Shown: positions 12,854 through 28,864 of the stretch, piece by piece | Layout: every line of letters starts with the position of its first letter | Position numbering within the stretch: the stretch's first letter is position 1 | DNA from: Mesorhizobium australicum WSM2073 | Lineage (GTDB): Bacteria; Pseudomonadota; Alphaproteobacteria; Rhizobiales; Rhizobiaceae | Length of the DNA stretch: 64,000 nucleotides | Assembly: GCF_000230995.2 (NCBI RefSeq) | Contig: NC_019973.1 | Span: 1,874,001-1,938,000, forward strand | Direction of reading: 5' to 3' | Notes under the pieces: model-generated | The model's input: the letters and a program-made list of their open reading frames with translations, nothing else | What the model was told of the DNA's origin: nothing | Databases searched by the model: none | Made by a program: the position numbers and the translations under genes

Positions 12854-13828
12854 ATGCCTCTGAAAGCGGAACTGCACTGCCACATCGAAGGGGCAGCGGC
12901 GCCCGATCTCGTCATTCGCCAGGCGCAGAAATACGGCAAGGACACCTCGCCTTATATCCAGAACGGTTCTTTCGTCTGGCACGATTTCACCTCCTTTCTC
13001 GCCGCCTATGACTTCTCCGCCGACCTGTTCCGGACCGAGGAGGATTATGCGCGGCTGGCCGACCACTATCTGACCAGCCTGGCCCGCGATGGCGCCATCT
13101 ACTCCGAGGTGTTCACCTCGCCCGACCACGCGACGAAAGCCGGGCTGTCATCCAAGGCCTACACCGATGCGCTCGGCGAAGGCATGCTGCGCGCCAAGGC
13201 AAAGACCGGCATCGAGGGCCGCATGATCGTCACCGGCGTGCGCCATGTCGGTGTCGAGTCGATCGAGCGCGCGGCACGCTTCGCGGCGCGTTGCGGCCAT
13301 CCGCTGGTTACCGGGTTCGGCGTCGCCGGCGACGAGCGCATGGGCGAGATGGAGGACTATGTCAGGGCTTTCGAGATCGCGCGCGAGGCCGGGCTCGGCA
13401 TCACCGTCCATGCCGGCGAACTGACGGGCTGGGAAACCGTCCAGGCGGCACTCGACCATATCCGCCCGTCGCGCATCGGCCATGGCGTGCGCGCCATCGA
13501 AAACCCCGACCTTGTCCGGCGCATCGCCGACCAGGGTGTCGTGCTGGAATGCTGCCCCGGCTCCAATATCGCGCTCAAGGTGTTCGACAGTTTCGCCGAC
13601 CATCCCTTTCCCGCCCTGCAGGCGGCCGGCTGCAAGGTGACGCTCAACTCCGACGACCCGCCCTATTTCTGGACCTCGCTGAAGCGCGAATACGATATCG
13701 CCGCCGAACATTTCTCGATGAGCGAAAAGGCGCTTGCCGCCGTCACCAGGACCGCCATCGAAGCCGCCTTCGTCGACAGGAAGACCAAGACAGCGCTTCT
13801 TGGTCGGTTGGACGCGAAAGTTCGGTGA
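12854..13828 (+). CDS. add: Adenosine deaminase
   Basis: Zinc amidohydrolase of 324 aa converting adenosine or deoxyadenosine to inosine or deoxyinosine. Metal ligands H8 and H10 in HCHIEG and H186 in HAGE, the catalytic E188, H210 in IGHG, and D267/D268 in SDDPP are all present. The protein is slightly short at the N-terminus relative to mammalian enzymes, as usual for this bacterial group, some members of which prefer adenine. With upp 143 bp downstream and the nucleoside operon opposite, it fits purine salvage. Its last bases run into a heptamer repeat. Confidence 0.88.
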
Positions 13829-13864
13829 ACAGTGAGTAGTCAGTAGTCGGTAGTGACGGTGCAC
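13825..13864. repeat. Left heptamer-repeat arm (GTNNNNA-type) after add
   Basis: Starting inside the add stop codon, the sequence reads as consecutive imperfect 7-mers: GTGAACA, GTGAGTA, GTCAGTA, GTCGGTA, GTGACGG. The first 16 bases are the exact reverse complement of 13929-13944, so the two arms can form a long hairpin around about 88 bases. Function unknown. Confidence 0.7.
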
Positions 13865-13919
13865 GCATCGAGCGGTTGAAGGCCGGCGCTTTCACTGACG
13901 CAGGGACTCGCAAATCGGC

Positions 13920-13956
13920 TCACTATTCACTACTCACTGTTCACCACTCACTATTC
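13920..13956. repeat. Right heptamer-repeat arm (CACTNNT-type) before upp
   Basis: Five consecutive 7-mers, CACTATT, CACTACT, CACTGTT, CACCACT, CACTATT, lie 14 bases before the upp start. They are in inverted orientation to the arm after add. The array may fold with its partner or reflect slippage. It contains no spacer structure and is not CRISPR-like. Confidence 0.7.
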
Positions 13957-13970
13957 CGTCGGAGCACATC

Positions 13971-14600
13971 ATGAAGGGCGTCACCGTCGTCGATCATCCG
14001 CTTGTCCAGCACAAGCTGACCATCATGCGCAAGAAGGAGACCTCGACGGCCGGCTTCCGGCGGTTGCTGCGTGAGATATCGCTGCTGCTCGGCTATGAGG
14101 TCACCCGCAATCTCGAACTGACGACGACAACGATCGAAACGCCTATGGAGACGATGGAGGCTCCGACGCTGGAGGGCAAGAAGCTGGTCTTCGCCTCGGT
14201 GCTGCGCGCCGGCAACGGCCTGCTCGAAGGTTTGCTCGACCTGGTGCCGGCGGCCCGCGTCGCCCATGTCGGCCTCTACCGCGATCATGAAACGCTGGAG
14301 GCCGTCGAGTATTTCTTCAAGGCGCCGAGCGACCTCGCCGACCGGCTGGTCATCGTCGTCGACCCGATGCTGGCGACAGCCAATTCGGCGATCGCGGCGA
14401 TCGACAAGTTGAAAGAGCGCGGCGCCACCAACATCCGCTTCCTGTGCCTGCTGGCGGCGCCCGAAGGCATCGAGCGCTTTACCAAGGCGCATCCGGATGT
14501 TCCGGTCTTCACCGCGTCCATCGACCGCCAGCTCAACGAGAAGGGCTACATCATGCCCGGCCTTGGCGATGCCGGCGACCGCATGTACGGGACGAAGTAA
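13971..14600 (+). CDS. upp: Uracil phosphoribosyltransferase
   Basis: Pyrimidine salvage enzyme, 209 aa, making UMP from uracil and PRPP. The opening [20 protein letters not shown] and the PRPP-binding loop [20 protein letters not shown] are family hallmarks, and the C-terminus [12 protein letters not shown] closes the uracil site. The length matches E. coli Upp (208 aa). It follows add on the same strand with repeat DNA between. Together with deoA and cdd on the opposite strand it handles pyrimidine bases released from imported nucleosides. Confidence 0.96.
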
Positions 14601-14721
14601 TACCCGAGCAATGTGCTTGGTATTTTTTACCAGGCGTTTACGCAAAGACGTGGTTCCGGCGCGCGTTAAAGCGGCAAACACCATCCGGCGCTAATGATCA
14701 GCTCTTCACAAAGGCCGATCC

Positions 14722-15285
14722 ATGCTGCGCAAGCTTCTCATTCTCAGCGTCTTTGCCGGTGCGTCGGCATCGATCCCGGTCGTCTACCAGTCGAATCCGC
14801 GAATATTCGAAAACCTGCTGAAATCGGCGGTGACGGCCAAGCCAGCGGCCGAGACGCAACCGGATGTCAGCCTGGCCTCCGTTCCCGACAAGCCGGTAGC
14901 GCCGCTGCCGACCGGCCGGAAGGTCGTGGTCGCGGCGGACGGGCGCGGACACTTCTCGTCGACCTTCAGGCTCAACGGCCGTCAAGTCGACGGCATGATC
15001 GACACCGGTGCGACGCTGGTCGCGGTCAATATGTCGACGGCACGCCGGATCGGACTGTCGCTCAATCCCTCCGATTTCAGCCACGAAGTCAACACCGCCA
15101 ACGGCACCATCAAGGCAGCCGTGGTGACGATTGATCGTCTGCAGATCGGCAGCATCAGCGTCGAAGGTGTGCAGGCGATCGTACTCGACGACAGGGCACT
15201 GCGCACCAACCTGATCGGCATGAGCTTTCTCAACAGACTCGGCAAATACCAGGCCGAAAACGGCACATTGCTGCTGGTTCAGTAG
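14722..15285 (+). CDS. TIGR02281-type clan AA (retropepsin-like) aspartic protease
   Basis: A 187-aa predicted inner-membrane or periplasmic protein with one N-terminal hydrophobic segment (LLILSVFAGASASIPVVY) and a retropepsin-like domain over residues 70-187. The catalytic signature is DTGAT in QVDGMIDTGATLVAV, and ALRTNLIGMSFLNRL is the second conserved block. Only one DTGA is present, so it should act as a dimer like retroviral proteases. Related rhizobial proteins are uncharacterised; the substrate is unknown. Confidence 0.85.
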   Translation: MLRKLLILSVFAGASASIPVVYQSNPRIFENLLKSAVTAKPAAETQPDVSLASVPDKPVAPLPTGRKVVVAADGRGHFSSTFRLNGRQVDGMIDTGATLVAVNMSTARRIGLSLNPSDFSHEVNTANGTIKAAVVTIDRLQIGSISVEGVQAIVLDDRALRTNLIGMSFLNRLGKYQAENGTLLLVQ

Positions 15286-25348: not shown

Positions 25349-25720
25349 GCCCGGACGATGCCCCCCCGCAAAGCCTCCGTTTCACTCGACAGGTGGCCCG
25401 CGACGAAGTCAAGCGCGGCCGGCCTTGCGGGCTCGCCTGTGCACATCATTCGGGGCGTCGGCACCTCGAAACGGATGCCGCGGCGGCCTCGCGAAGCGCT
25501 GTGTGGCCGGCAAAGCGAATAGACTGTCGTTATGGCTTGGCATTCGGCGCGGGATCGACTAGATGAGCCCCGCGCCTGTTGCTTTGACGGCTCAGGTGCC
25601 GGGGAGAGGTGTCCGCTGGTTGGCGGCACCCATAGCGCGGAAATCGCTACTCCTCCCTGAAGGGACTGCATTGTCCCCAACCCGCGCGGCGAAACCGGCC
25701 GTCGCGAAAAATGCAAGGAC
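25349..25720. other. 372-bp intergenic stretch before tRNA-Ser
   Basis: No convincing gene here. The open frames have high-G+C random composition and no ribosome sites or domain-like segments. It must contain the tRNA-Ser promoter, but no clear -10/-35 pair could be fixed by eye. Confidence 0.6.
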
Positions 25721-25810
25721 GGAGAGGTGGCCGAGTGGTTGAAGGCGCACGCCTGGAAAGTGTGTTTACGGGAGACCGTAACGCGGGTTCGAATCCCGCT
25801 CTCTCCGCCA
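25721..25810 (+). tRNA. tRNA-Ser (anticodon GGA)
   Basis: A 90-base serine tRNA with encoded CCA. It has a 7-bp acceptor stem (GGAGAGG with TCTCTCC), a D arm in CCGAGTGGTTGAAGG, and a 5-bp anticodon stem with loop CTGGAAA giving anticodon GGA. A long class II variable arm (ACGGGAGACCGT) and a T arm GCGGGTTCGAATCCCGC follow. It reads UCC and UCU. Its last 17 bases are part of a 21-bp sequence repeated at 28228-28248, so the 3' end has served as an integration site while the gene stayed intact. Confidence 0.97.
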
Positions 25811-25814
25811 GCTT
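25794..25814 (+). repeat. attL-like direct repeat (tRNA-Ser 3' end)
   Basis: A 21-bp sequence beginning TCCCGCTCTCTCCGCC, covering the tRNA T-arm/acceptor 3' strand, CCA and four bases beyond. It is identical to 28228-28248 and mismatched on both sides, as expected for the core of a tyrosine-integrase attachment site. Confidence 0.85.
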
Positions 25815-26206
25815 GCTAAATCGCCACTAACGTAGTGAAAAATGGACGCTTTCAAGAGAGCGTTCTCGCTGCGGTGCCCCACAACGGTGCCCCAATAGTC
25901 GAGCCTGCGCCCAGAAGAGTTAGCTATCGTTCCGACTCAAGGTTATGGGTGGGAATCAGATGTCGGCGCTCTCCAAGCGAGGGGCAGGCAACCTCTTCGG
26001 CACGAACACCGGGAACCTTTTTTGTGAGATTTCTGGCCCCAAGCCCGATTTTTAGGTTCGCTTGCGCGTGATGGACCAGGTATTCGGCCTGACGGTTTAT
26101 GATGGCAAGGGTACGGGGGGAAAGCTTGCAGAAGCCCCTGCGAGATGGGGCTCAAATAGGCGACCCCCAAATTAAGACCGGGGTCCGGCTTTTTGTGGCT
26201 GCATGT
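25815..26206. other. Island left end, no gene seen
   Basis: About 390 bp between the tRNA 3' repeat and the end of the ATPase gene. A short near-repeat GTGCCCCACAAC/GGTGCCCCAATA lies at about 25876-25898. Small open frames here lack ribosome sites and family features. It may be leftover from deleted island genes. Confidence 0.5.
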
Positions 26207-27973
26207 TCACTTGCTGTTCCACAGCGCTATCGCTTCGCAAAGCTGATCCAATCGCGCCGTCAAATCTAAGTGCCCACTCATGTCTCCGGCTTCGAGTTGT
26301 GCGACTGCGCTGTGTGCAATGGCGATCTTGTCGCCTCCAAAAGACTTTAGCTCGGGCAGCGCGACGATATCGTCGTAGGAATCCGCTTTCACCGCCTCTC
26401 CCGCCAATTTGTCGAGGACTTTCGGCGGAATGTAGTTTTCAACCTCCCGGCCCTCAGTGATCCAGACGTACCCTCCCAAAGCCTCAAACTCCTGCTTCAG
26501 GCGAAGCTTCGTGTGGTTGAGGTGCATGCGAGGTTTTCGAGCCTTCTTGCCTTCTGAAGCTGGCTTACCGCGGTGGCGGTCACTGTCAATCAACAGCGCT
26601 GCATTTCGGTTCAAAGCGAGAAGGGAGATAAGTTTGTCGCCCTCACCTGGGGCTAGACCGTGCAGATGCGAAAGGAGCTTGCCTCCATAAAACATGACCG
26701 AGTAATGAACGCCTTCCTTAAGACGATCACCGGTATTTAGAGCGATCCATTTATTGATGTAAATTCTATCAGATGGCCCTTCTACCCAGACTACCCCGTT
26801 AGCCTGCAGTATGTCGGAGGCGCGAATATCCAAATCATCCAATATTTCTCGTCCGTTTCCATATCCAATTGCAACTCTAGCGGACGCAGATACCCCATCA
26901 TGCTTTATGTGAATTATTTGGGTGTCACTACGCTTCGTAGACCAGTCAATGCCTATCGGTGAATGAGTGGAAATTATCAACGAAAATTTTCTCTCCTCTC
27001 GCTGCCTTGCAAGGAAATTCAGGAGTCTGCGCAGCAGGGCAGGGTGAAGGTTATTTTCTGGTTCCTCTAAAGATAATAATACCTTCGACCAATCAACATT
27101 GTCGATTTTTGGAAGTAGACGCAGCGTCGCTAGGATAATGAAGATCGACTTCAGGCTGCTTCCCGATTGAGATAGCCTTATGTCTCCTTTCGAATCCTCC
27201 CTCAGAAAAATCTCCCACACCCCACCTTTATTTTCACGACAGGTGATAGCTGTAAATAAACAGTCTCCAAGATATATTTCATTCAACTCACGGAGGAGCT
27301 CAATCTCAACCTCGTTCCGAGGAAGGTCGTCGCTGTTTATGAAAGCTCTAACAAGGTTAGTCAAACCGACACCGTTGGGAGATATCGTCCTTTCCCCTGC
27401 TCTCGGTTCAGGTCTAACATCGCGCTCGGCAGCAACTTGTACTAATCGAATGTTTTCGAAGGGAAAACCCAATGTCTGTGCTAAATTCTGGCGGAAATTG
27501 CTTGGAACCGCTATCAAGTCTCGGTCGGTACGCGGTATTTCCGCGAAGTCTGCTTTCCAGTCTGGCCCGTACCAAATCACCCCCCGCTTGGACAGCAGGC
27601 GCTTTCCGTAGTGCCAATGATTTCCAGGTAGGGAACCTCCACTGGTAGATTCCTGAAAAATACGCCTTAGAGCCGGTTCTGTAACTTCCCGCTCAATAAG
27701 GACGGAGAAGGGTCTTCCGGAGACGTCGTGATCAGCGCCGACGTACTTTTCACCTCTGGAGATGCACACATTAATAGCGTCAACGAGAGATGACTTGCCG
27801 CTGTTATTTCTGCCGATGATTACGTTTATCGGGCGGAAGCTAATTGGATCGAACGCCTCACGACCGAAACTTTTGAAATTCCTAATGGAGAACGCAATAC
27901 CATCTAATGGGTGTTCCAACTCACCGCCCCCAAGCGTTTTCGGTATCCTAAGGGCGTCATCGGTGTCCGACAA
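26207..27973 (-). CDS. OLD-like AAA ATPase with C-terminal TOPRIM nuclease domain, putative anti-phage protein
   Basis: A 588-aa SMC/ABC-type ATPase joined to a TOPRIM domain. The N-terminal half has RNFKSFG, Walker A GRNNSGKSS (residues 54-62), an ABC signature-like LSQSGSSLKS (268-277), Walker B VLLSLEEPENNLHP (298-311) and the H-loop STHSP (H337). The TOPRIM part has VVWVEGPSDRIYINKWI (E398) and ALLIDSDRHRGKP (D463, D465). This is the order found in OLD-family and GajA-type nucleases. No UvrD-like GajB helicase is adjacent, so a stand-alone (class 1-like) OLD is the closer reading; a PARIS-like protein is an alternative. The start is a TTG at 27973 with no clear ribosome site. Confidence 0.82.
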   Translation of the reverse strand: MSDTDDALRIPKTLGGGELEHPLDGIAFSIRNFKSFGREAFDPISFRPINVIIGRNNSGKSSLVDAINVCISRGEKYVGADHDVSGRPFSVLIEREVTEPALRRIFQESTSGGSLPGNHWHYGKRLLSKRGVIWYGPDWKADFAEIPRTDRDLIAVPSNFRQNLAQTLGFPFENIRLVQVAAERDVRPEPRAGERTISPNGVGLTNLVRAFINSDDLPRNEVEIELLRELNEIYLGDCLFTAITCRENKGGVWEIFLREDSKGDIRLSQSGSSLKSIFIILATLRLLPKIDNVDWSKVLLSLEEPENNLHPALLRRLLNFLARQREERKFSLIISTHSPIGIDWSTKRSDTQIIHIKHDGVSASARVAIGYGNGREILDDLDIRASDILQANGVVWVEGPSDRIYINKWIALNTGDRLKEGVHYSVMFYGGKLLSHLHGLAPGEGDKLISLLALNRNAALLIDSDRHRGKPASEGKKARKPRMHLNHTKLRLKQEFEALGGYVWITEGREVENYIPPKVLDKLAGEAVKADSYDDIVALPELKSFGGDKIAIAHSAVAQLEAGDMSGHLDLTARLDQLCEAIALWNSK

Positions 27974-27991
27974 TCTATTTGGTCGGCAACT

Positions 27992-28248
27992 TCACGGCCT
28001 GCACAAGGGTCCTCTTCGCCTTCTCCGGGGCCTGGCTAGGACCTTCTCAGCTGCGGCAATTGCACCCTTGAGGCGGCACACGATAGGCCACTTGCGGGCG
28101 TCTGCGTCCTTTAGGTCGGCAGCGTGGAGAGGGTAGGTGAGCTTGCCTCGCCCGATTAGATCACGAACCTTCGCTGGAACCCTAACGCGGACCCGCCACC
28201 GCTGTCCGTGCCATTCGGAGGAGAGTGTCCCGCTCTCTCCGCCAGCTT
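27992..28248 (-). pseudogene. Tyrosine integrase N-terminal remnant
   Basis: The minus-strand frame gives EWHGQRWRVRVRVPAKVRDL, then RGKLTYPLHAADLKDADARK and RLKGAIAAAEKVLA. This resembles the N-terminal part of phage-type integrases that act at tRNA genes (RVRVPxxVRxLIG...L.TxDxxxA). It stops at 27992 without any core-binding or catalytic R-H-R-Y domain. The frame runs through the right 21-bp repeat, so its N-terminus is also not native. The ATPase start follows 19 bp after its stop in the same frame. The call rests on a short segment. Confidence 0.55.
28228..28248 (+). repeat. attR-like direct repeat (partial tRNA-Ser 3' copy)
   Basis: An exact copy of the 21 bases at 25794-25814, here without the rest of the tRNA. 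It marks the right edge of the insertion; sequence beyond it (to the DUF982 gene at 28515) shows no gene. Confidence 0.85.
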
Positions 28249-28514
28249 CCCTTTTCAGCAGGCGCTTCTGGGTGCAGCCTAGCATACTAGCATCTCGACT
28301 ATCGAACCTTGATCCGTCTTCTCGCCGGTCCGACGGAGCAGCAGCCATGGCCGGTGGATCAGGATGCAAGATTTCCGGCGCACTCACGCGTGCGTTCCGC
28401 AAACGGTCCTGTTTGCTCCGGAACCTCCTAGCTCGCGATGCGTTACCCGGCGTCTCATCATAGATCCCCGCCAGGATTTTCTCCGAGAACCGCGTCCAAT
28501 CAGGAGCCCGCTTC

Positions 28515-28817
28515 ATGCATGACAAGCTGTTTCATTCGCCCGTCGCACTGACCGTCGGTCTCGGCTTCAAGCGCGAAATCGCCTCGCTGGCCGAAATGCA
28601 CGATTTCCTGACCAACTGGACGACCTCCCGACGTGGTCCGCTTTATCGCAATGCCGTCGAGGCGTGCGGCCTGGCCCTGGAAGGCTGCATCACGAGGGAC
28701 CAGGCGCGCCATGCGCTTGTTGAATTCGCGGAAGCCACCGGTATTCTCTGGCCCGAGATCGAGCCCGTCATCGTGGCGCGGGCCGTCGCACGCGGCCATG
28801 GCGGCTACGCCGCCTGA
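28515..28817 (+). CDS. DUF982 family protein
   Basis: A 100-aa protein matching the rhizobial DUF982 pattern: FHSPVALTVGLGFKREIASL, then FLTNWTTSRRGPLYRNAVEACGLAL, and a C-terminal region with QARHALVEFAEATGIL. Members are numerous in Mesorhizobium and Sinorhizobium and have no known function. It lies 266 bp beyond the island's right repeat, so it probably belongs to the chromosome. It is convergent with the DUF6894 gene, with a shared hairpin between. Confidence 0.85.
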   Translation: MHDKLFHSPVALTVGLGFKREIASLAEMHDFLTNWTTSRRGPLYRNAVEACGLALEGCITRDQARHALVEFAEATGILWPEIEPVIVARAVARGHGGYAA

Positions 28818-28864
28818 TCGTTCGAGCTGTCATTGCGATGGCCAGTTCGTACGGCCGTCCCCTG

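Follow-up and report, generated by a model that had tools for sequence, protein, structure and literature searches.

Cis-mobilizable elements (CIMEs) are described as elements that lack integration and transfer genes and retain both attachment (att) sites (PMC5704250). In Mesorhizobium, tRNA-Ser is a reported integration site, and the integrative and conjugative elements (ICEs) and integrative and mobilizable elements (IMEs) of the genus bear genes for conjugation or relaxases, with 5,814 bp as the size of the smallest IME (PMC8627217). Islands at tRNA genes with flanking repeats have also been described in Sinorhizobium (PMC11476347); the available part of that source does not mention the island considered here. 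This island lies at a tRNA-Ser(GGA) gene of Mesorhizobium australicum WSM2073, in a 64,000-nucleotide stretch (the window) that corresponds to positions 1874001-1938000 of a genome consisting of one 6.2-Mb contig. Our analysis indicates that it is likely a decayed tRNA-Ser island that has retained one intact gene, which encodes a predicted ATPase/TOPRIM nuclease of the OLD family. Like a CIME, the island keeps attL and attR, has its integrase in two pieces, and contains no recognised transfer gene. It differs from a CIME in its size of 2.4 kb, its single gene, and the loss of one arm region, which makes mobilization doubtful. With the Mesorhizobium ICEs and IMEs it shares anchoring at tRNA-Ser, a likeness at the level of tRNA type, and it differs from them in having no recognised conjugation or relaxase gene. 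The island type itself is ordinary, and the present example is a very small member. No report of a tRNA island with OLD as its only gene was found in the literature, as judged by titles and the beginnings of abstracts.

The tRNA-Ser(GGA) gene is intact (window positions 25721-25810, plus strand). It was called by ARAGORN and was the single match in an Rfam scan of positions 25500-28600. A 21-bp repeat forming the att core is present on the tRNA side (25794-25814, plus strand) and again at the distal end of the island (28228-28248, plus strand). The two copies are identical and lie 2434 bp apart from start to start. The 3' end of the tRNA, including CCA, supplies 17 of the 21 bases, and the remaining four lie just past the tRNA. 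With up to three mismatches allowed, the 21-mer has two matches in the window compared with an expectation of 0.00, and two or more matches were reached in 0 of 100 shuffles. The 17-mer tRNA end occurs twice in the whole genome (backward-read control, 0). Positions 28217-28246 are identical, at 30 of 30 nucleotides, to the distal att region of an island in another Mesorhizobium genome, G035. These observations support integration of an element at the tRNA 3' end. A chance origin of the distal repeat, or an unrelated duplication of the tRNA end that involved no site-specific integration, is next to impossible in view of the shuffling result, and is already disfavored by the island of G035, which has an integrase of the same family together with the same att sequence.

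A remnant of that integrase family is found in two pieces at the distal end, both on the minus strand. The 5' (N-terminal) coding piece of 177 nucleotides (28041-28217) matched the DUF6538 profile with 27.0 bits, barely at the profile cut-off, and its DNA is 76-81% identical to the intact integrases of G135, G035, and G021. The 3' (C-terminal) coding piece of about 50 nucleotides (27984-28034) has 84-88% DNA identity to the 3' ends of the integrase genes of G021, G135, and G035. The intact reference integrase, from G035, is a 450-aa protein of the tyrosine type with DUF6538 and Phage_integrase domains. Relative to this gene (locus L122), about 1.06 kb of the middle (13596-14658) is absent from the window. 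A second, separate loss of about 108 bases (14836-14943) comprises the integrase start and two GGTGCCCC repeats; after this loss the 5' piece abuts the distal repeat almost directly. The remnant lies in a 177-aa open reading frame (ORF) that continues across the distal repeat and does not constitute a gene. When 58 codons of the 5' piece are compared, 8-10 amino acids distinguish the remnant from the intact genes and 2-6 distinguish the intact genes from one another, a pattern that in this small sample fits mild drift. A search with the N-terminal piece detected no second integrase of this DUF6538 family in the window genome. At the other end of the island, two direct GGTGCCCC repeats (25873-25880 and 25886-25893, plus strand) are present at the same position in G035 and G135, and in G021 with one mismatch in one of the two copies. 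The left arm region also has a 25-bp exact match to G135. The GGTGCCCC repeats are probably arm-type integrase sites.

The island has a single recognised intact gene, the OLD-family gene (26207-27919, minus strand). Its likelier start is the TTG codon at 27917-27919, giving a protein of 570 aa as opposed to 588 aa for the longest ORF, because an 89%-identical relative (P0002) begins there. The gene has a GC content of 49.5% compared with 64.7 ± 1.6% across 37 further long ORFs in the window, a contrast somewhat flattered by the choice of those ORFs for high third-position GC among overlapping frames; the sliding GC profile dips likewise. Two other ORFs between the repeats, ORFs antisense to the OLD gene being left out, matched no Pfam family. 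As judged by profiles, modeled fold, and conserved residues, the protein is an OLD-family ATPase/TOPRIM nuclease. The Pfam families AAA_21 and AAA_15 scored above cut-off, and the Walker A, Walker B, and H-loop residues Lys-41, Glu-284, Glu-285, and His-318 are invariant or at least 90% conserved in 45 sequences. In the C-terminal TOPRIM domain the E...D and DxD metal ligands are present, and the catalytic positions checked are conserved. The original prediction, made from the DNA letters and ORF translations, had proposed an intact tRNA-Ser(GGA) with an exact copy of its end 2434 bp downstream, an integrase remnant, and one intact OLD-like ATPase/TOPRIM gene of foreign-looking composition, and the data above bear out all three.

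The assignment of the protein within the OLD family is less straightforward. GajA of the Gabija system gave the best PADLOC profile score (75.9 bits) and was the best Foldseek match of the model, with matches to GajA being only 13-18% identical. All 50 rows of a VIA-align search with the whole model were ATPase-domain matches (PtuA, SMC, Rad50, and cohesin), none of them GajA or Ts OLD, and the C-terminal part was modeled separately because these matches filled the rows. Modeled alone, the C-terminal domain has its closest counterparts in Class 2 OLD proteins (Bp and Xcc OLD). The protein resembles the Class 1 OLD proteins (P2 Old, Ts OLD, and YbjD/OldB) in being encoded by a single gene, in combining an ABC ATPase with TOPRIM, and in its types of metal-binding residue. 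Unlike them, it has an extended helical C-terminal part that is nearest to Class 2, and it exceeds Ts OLD by 45 aa in length. Filing under Class 1 was rejected on architecture, since the C-terminal helical domain is present and the protein is not shortened. Filing under Gabija (Class 2) was rejected because a GajB-like UvrD/PcrA/Rep helicase is missing: crude motif patterns for UvrD-type helicases and reverse transcriptases found neither in the long open frames of a 21-kb region surrounding the gene, and no other intact island gene was recognised. A retron Eco8 type was likewise rejected in view of the missing reverse transcriptase motif and the Rfam result given above. Compared with AriA and AriB of PARIS, the window protein is a fused OLD protein, and the AriAB fusion profile scored lower than GajA (50.6 bits). 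On sequence and model, the protein is of mixed class, with the context of a single gene and a Class 2-like (GajA-type) architecture.

The same tRNA site was compared in 146 Mesorhizobium genomes. The 17-mer tRNA end is present in 142 of them. At least eight genomes, including that of the window, have a second 17-mer on the same strand and contig within 20 kb, at spacings of 2.4-16.2 kb. Among the matches listed, the spacing in the window is the shortest, and no other genome has a second copy 2434 bp away. A close copy of the OLD gene was found in two of the 146 genomes, and at tRNA-Ser(GGA) in the window genome only. In 31 of 35 stretches taken from the site, which did not always span it entirely, the tRNA end was present with a single copy of the 12-base core; the two-copy genomes are not in this set. 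The 17-mer is also present twice in each of G140 and G143, with one copy in the stretch examined per genome.

The nearest approach to an empty site is in G107, which has a single repeat copy and no island. Here 157 bases separate the match to the left flank, ending 6 bases past the tRNA, from the match to the right flank. The chromosomal right flank of the window (28384-28820, plus strand) is conserved and holds an ORF of family DUF982 (28515-28817); it is matched by G107 from 28384 (87%) and by many other genomes from about 28417.

In G035, a sister island of 13.2 kb occupies the same tRNA-Ser(GGA), with the same terminal repeat and an integrase in the same orientation. The gene adjoining its DUF6538 integrase (L122, 11685-13286, minus strand) encodes an AriAB-like (PARIS) fused ATPase (PADLOC, 1.7e-54). 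In G135 and G021 the same integrase type is found at tRNA-Ser(CGA), whose last 17 bases occur a second time in each case, and, as judged by eye, a resolvase-like ORF is common to the islands of G035, G135, and G021. A 16.2-kb island at tRNA-Ser(GGA) in G002 (L176, 1229-17401) carries TIR-TM and NsnA/GmrSD-type genes and an integrase of another type; its 606-aa AAA ATPase is a different gene that is weakly matched by the window protein (2.1e-7). Because varied islands occupy it across genomes, the tRNA-Ser(GGA) site is a hotspot at which integration has recurred. The original prediction had proposed looking in related strains for an empty site, and a site without the island was found in another species; it had also proposed a search for larger islands with the same cargo at this tRNA. 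The larger islands exist, the one in G035 having the same integrase type with an AriAB gene; a close OLD copy at this tRNA is confined to the window. Neither pattern that it had named as speaking against it, the same repeat spacing elsewhere or presence of the gene throughout the genus, was seen among these matches.

Other arrangements were also observed at this tRNA. In G098 (L180) a 1119-aa Trypsin_2 protein is encoded between two complete tRNA-Ser(GGA) genes that lie 4258 bp apart. Islands of 7.6-7.8 kb are present in G001, G032, and G039 (L175, L177, and L178); the first 60 residues of their integrase-like ORFs are nearly alike and of a type unlike that of the window, the family search having been made on G001 only. 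A 5.0-kb unit lies between two copies of the tRNA end in G055 (L179, 1207-6204), where no integrase-like ORF of at least 100 aa was seen by eye.

We propose that a DUF6538 tyrosine integrase inserted the island into the 3' end of tRNA-Ser(GGA), an event that would have regenerated the tRNA and left a second att core at the far end. Decay would then have removed the middle of the integrase gene, with a separate deletion taking the integrase start and the right arm sites. Because the integrase and the right arm are lost, the element could hardly move by itself and would be a CIME-like remnant. Loss of further cargo is plausible by comparison with the sister islands, and selection may have retained the OLD gene. 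The suggestion in the original prediction that a minimal island had shed everything except an anti-phage gene therefore stands in part: the island is decayed, holds one gene, and has lost most of its integrase and its right arm, whereas neither further shedding nor the anti-phage role is proven.

A second OLD unit is found at a different tRNA gene. In G085, tRNA-Leu(CAG) is followed at about 0.1 kb by a 64%-identical homologue, and a 42-bp stretch recurs with three mismatches 3,007 bp away, flanking the OLD gene. In G075 the flanks overlap by 42 bp around one copy, giving a clean empty tRNA-Leu(CAG) site. OLD is the sole recognised gene in the repeat interval of G085, and the two other ORFs there have no Pfam family. 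Both copies of more than 60% identity that could be placed in Mesorhizobium sit between att-like repeats, at different tRNA genes. Such single-OLD units at two tRNA genes, and the absence of any recognised piece of an integrase from the two scanned ORFs of the G085 unit, would also suit a non-autonomous mini-element, consisting only of att ends and the nuclease gene and moved in trans, with the integrase pieces of the window coming from an earlier occupant. We consider this improbable, because the integrase pieces, left arm, and distal att of the window all belong to one integrase family and are ordered as in the intact sister island, the right arm sites are gone, and the window genome yielded no second integrase of that family to the N-terminal piece. 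It is also improbable that the OLD gene came into the island by illegitimate recombination after decay had taken place, the repeats then dating an older event. No intact island with both this integrase and the OLD gene was found among the 146 genomes, and the DNA that separates the left arm from the OLD gene is without relatives in the genus, as later entry would allow. Nevertheless, the OLD gene lies directly beside the integrase 3' end, which is the slot of AriAB in G035, and the G085 homologue is also flanked by att-like repeats.

Several points weigh against the interpretation as a decayed island with a retained OLD gene. The 146 genomes represent other species and not strains of the same species. 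Positions 25811-26206, from the tRNA to the OLD stop codon, match the genus solely by the 25-bp arm repeat, and so cargo loss on the tRNA side is not directly seen. No tRNA lies in the 19 kb surrounding either of the 44%-identical homologues of G004 and G014, and a 54%-identical homologue in G597 has none in 19.5 kb and a resolvase-like ORF nearby (by eye); the linkage to tRNA genes is therefore not general. The 82%-identical copy of Mesorhizobium sp. C089B (P0007, 435 aa) departs from the family sequence near its end and looks frameshifted there, which argues against strict conservation. No homologue was found in plasmid records at E 1e-40 or in phage records at E 1e-10. Finally, the model superposes poorly on full-length OLD structures (TM 0.24-0.32).

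An order-level sample (397 genomes, E 1e-60) yielded the G597 homologue besides the window genome, and a family-level sample (394 genomes, E 1e-30) three partial matches. A scan of genome contigs gave 12 loci with 31-37% identity. In viral contigs a scan with the single protein found no relative, and a scan with the homologue alignment found 23 loci, the best segments being 23-43% identical, some of them beside Mu-like genes. In a tree of 45 homologues the window protein groups with P0002 and P0007 (100/100) and the G085 copy falls in a neighboring subgroup, the fork joining the two subgroups being weak (91/40). Read without a species tree, this tree does not settle vertical versus horizontal descent beyond the sporadic presence of the gene. 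The neighborhoods of distant homologues were surveyed through 73 of 100 neighboring ORFs at 19 of 20 loci (L109 gave none), with the best 25 of 84 matched families considered; most of the 27 unscanned ORFs are shorter than 200 aa, with others of 1796, 416, 299, and 246 aa. Resolvase was matched by 4 of the 73 ORFs scanned. As judged by eye, 31-33% identical OLD homologues in unrelated bacteria (L098, L101, L102, and L104) adjoin recombinase- or resolvase-like ORFs. In the same motif scan of 26 homologue loci, a UvrD motif was found at one locus, L103, in a gene neighboring DUF2290, and a reverse transcriptase-like motif at one (L101, three ORFs away).

By analogy with its family, the window protein is likely to use its ABC domain for ATP binding and a two-metal TOPRIM site for DNA cleavage. 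It would probably protect the cell through ATP-regulated cleavage of DNA entering from outside, whether of phages or of other origin; DNA ends kept away from the host recombination nuclease are one candidate target, by analogy with Gabija, for which linear DNA with RecBCD excluded is the proposed trigger (PMC12407980). Both the nuclease activity and the trigger are deduced from these relatives. P2 Old is lethal to recB and recC mutants, and it also interferes with lambda. In the accessible text of a 2023 review, the evidence for defense by a single OLD gene is that of P2 Old against lambda alone (PMC10568477). In a 2026 note, YbjD is reported to give defense on induced expression with its TOPRIM domain being dispensable (PMC13261556), and so nuclease-dependent action should not be assumed. 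Given its family membership, we think an anti-phage role of the window protein reasonably likely. That it is instead a repair or exclusion factor, or inactive, is the less likely view, although a serious one: Class 1 OLD proteins have little demonstrated defense (P2 Old, and YbjD when its expression is induced), viral contigs contain distant homologues, and the C089B copy looks broken. This view is opposed by the conserved catalytic positions and by the PARIS-like, TIR, and GmrSD-type genes in the tRNA-Ser(GGA) islands of G035 and G002. It is opposed also by the 33% homologue at L103, which lies beside a DUF2290 gene and a PADLOC-matched helicase, though it itself matches no PADLOC family at 1e-15.

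We raise, as a tentative and rather unlikely extension, that an OLD lineage of GajA architecture is a complete, helicase-free, one-gene defense that persists in Mesorhizobium as the near-sole cargo of tRNA islands at two tRNA sites and outlasts their integrases. The system is of somewhat greater note for two reasons: an OLD gene has survived alone between att-like repeats more than once, and its product is of mixed class. The accessible text of the 2023 review (PMC10568477) treats broad anti-phage defense by an OLD protein acting alone as an open question. Two natural OLD-only elements, with a sister island and empty sites available for comparison, provide a convenient test case for lone-OLD defense.
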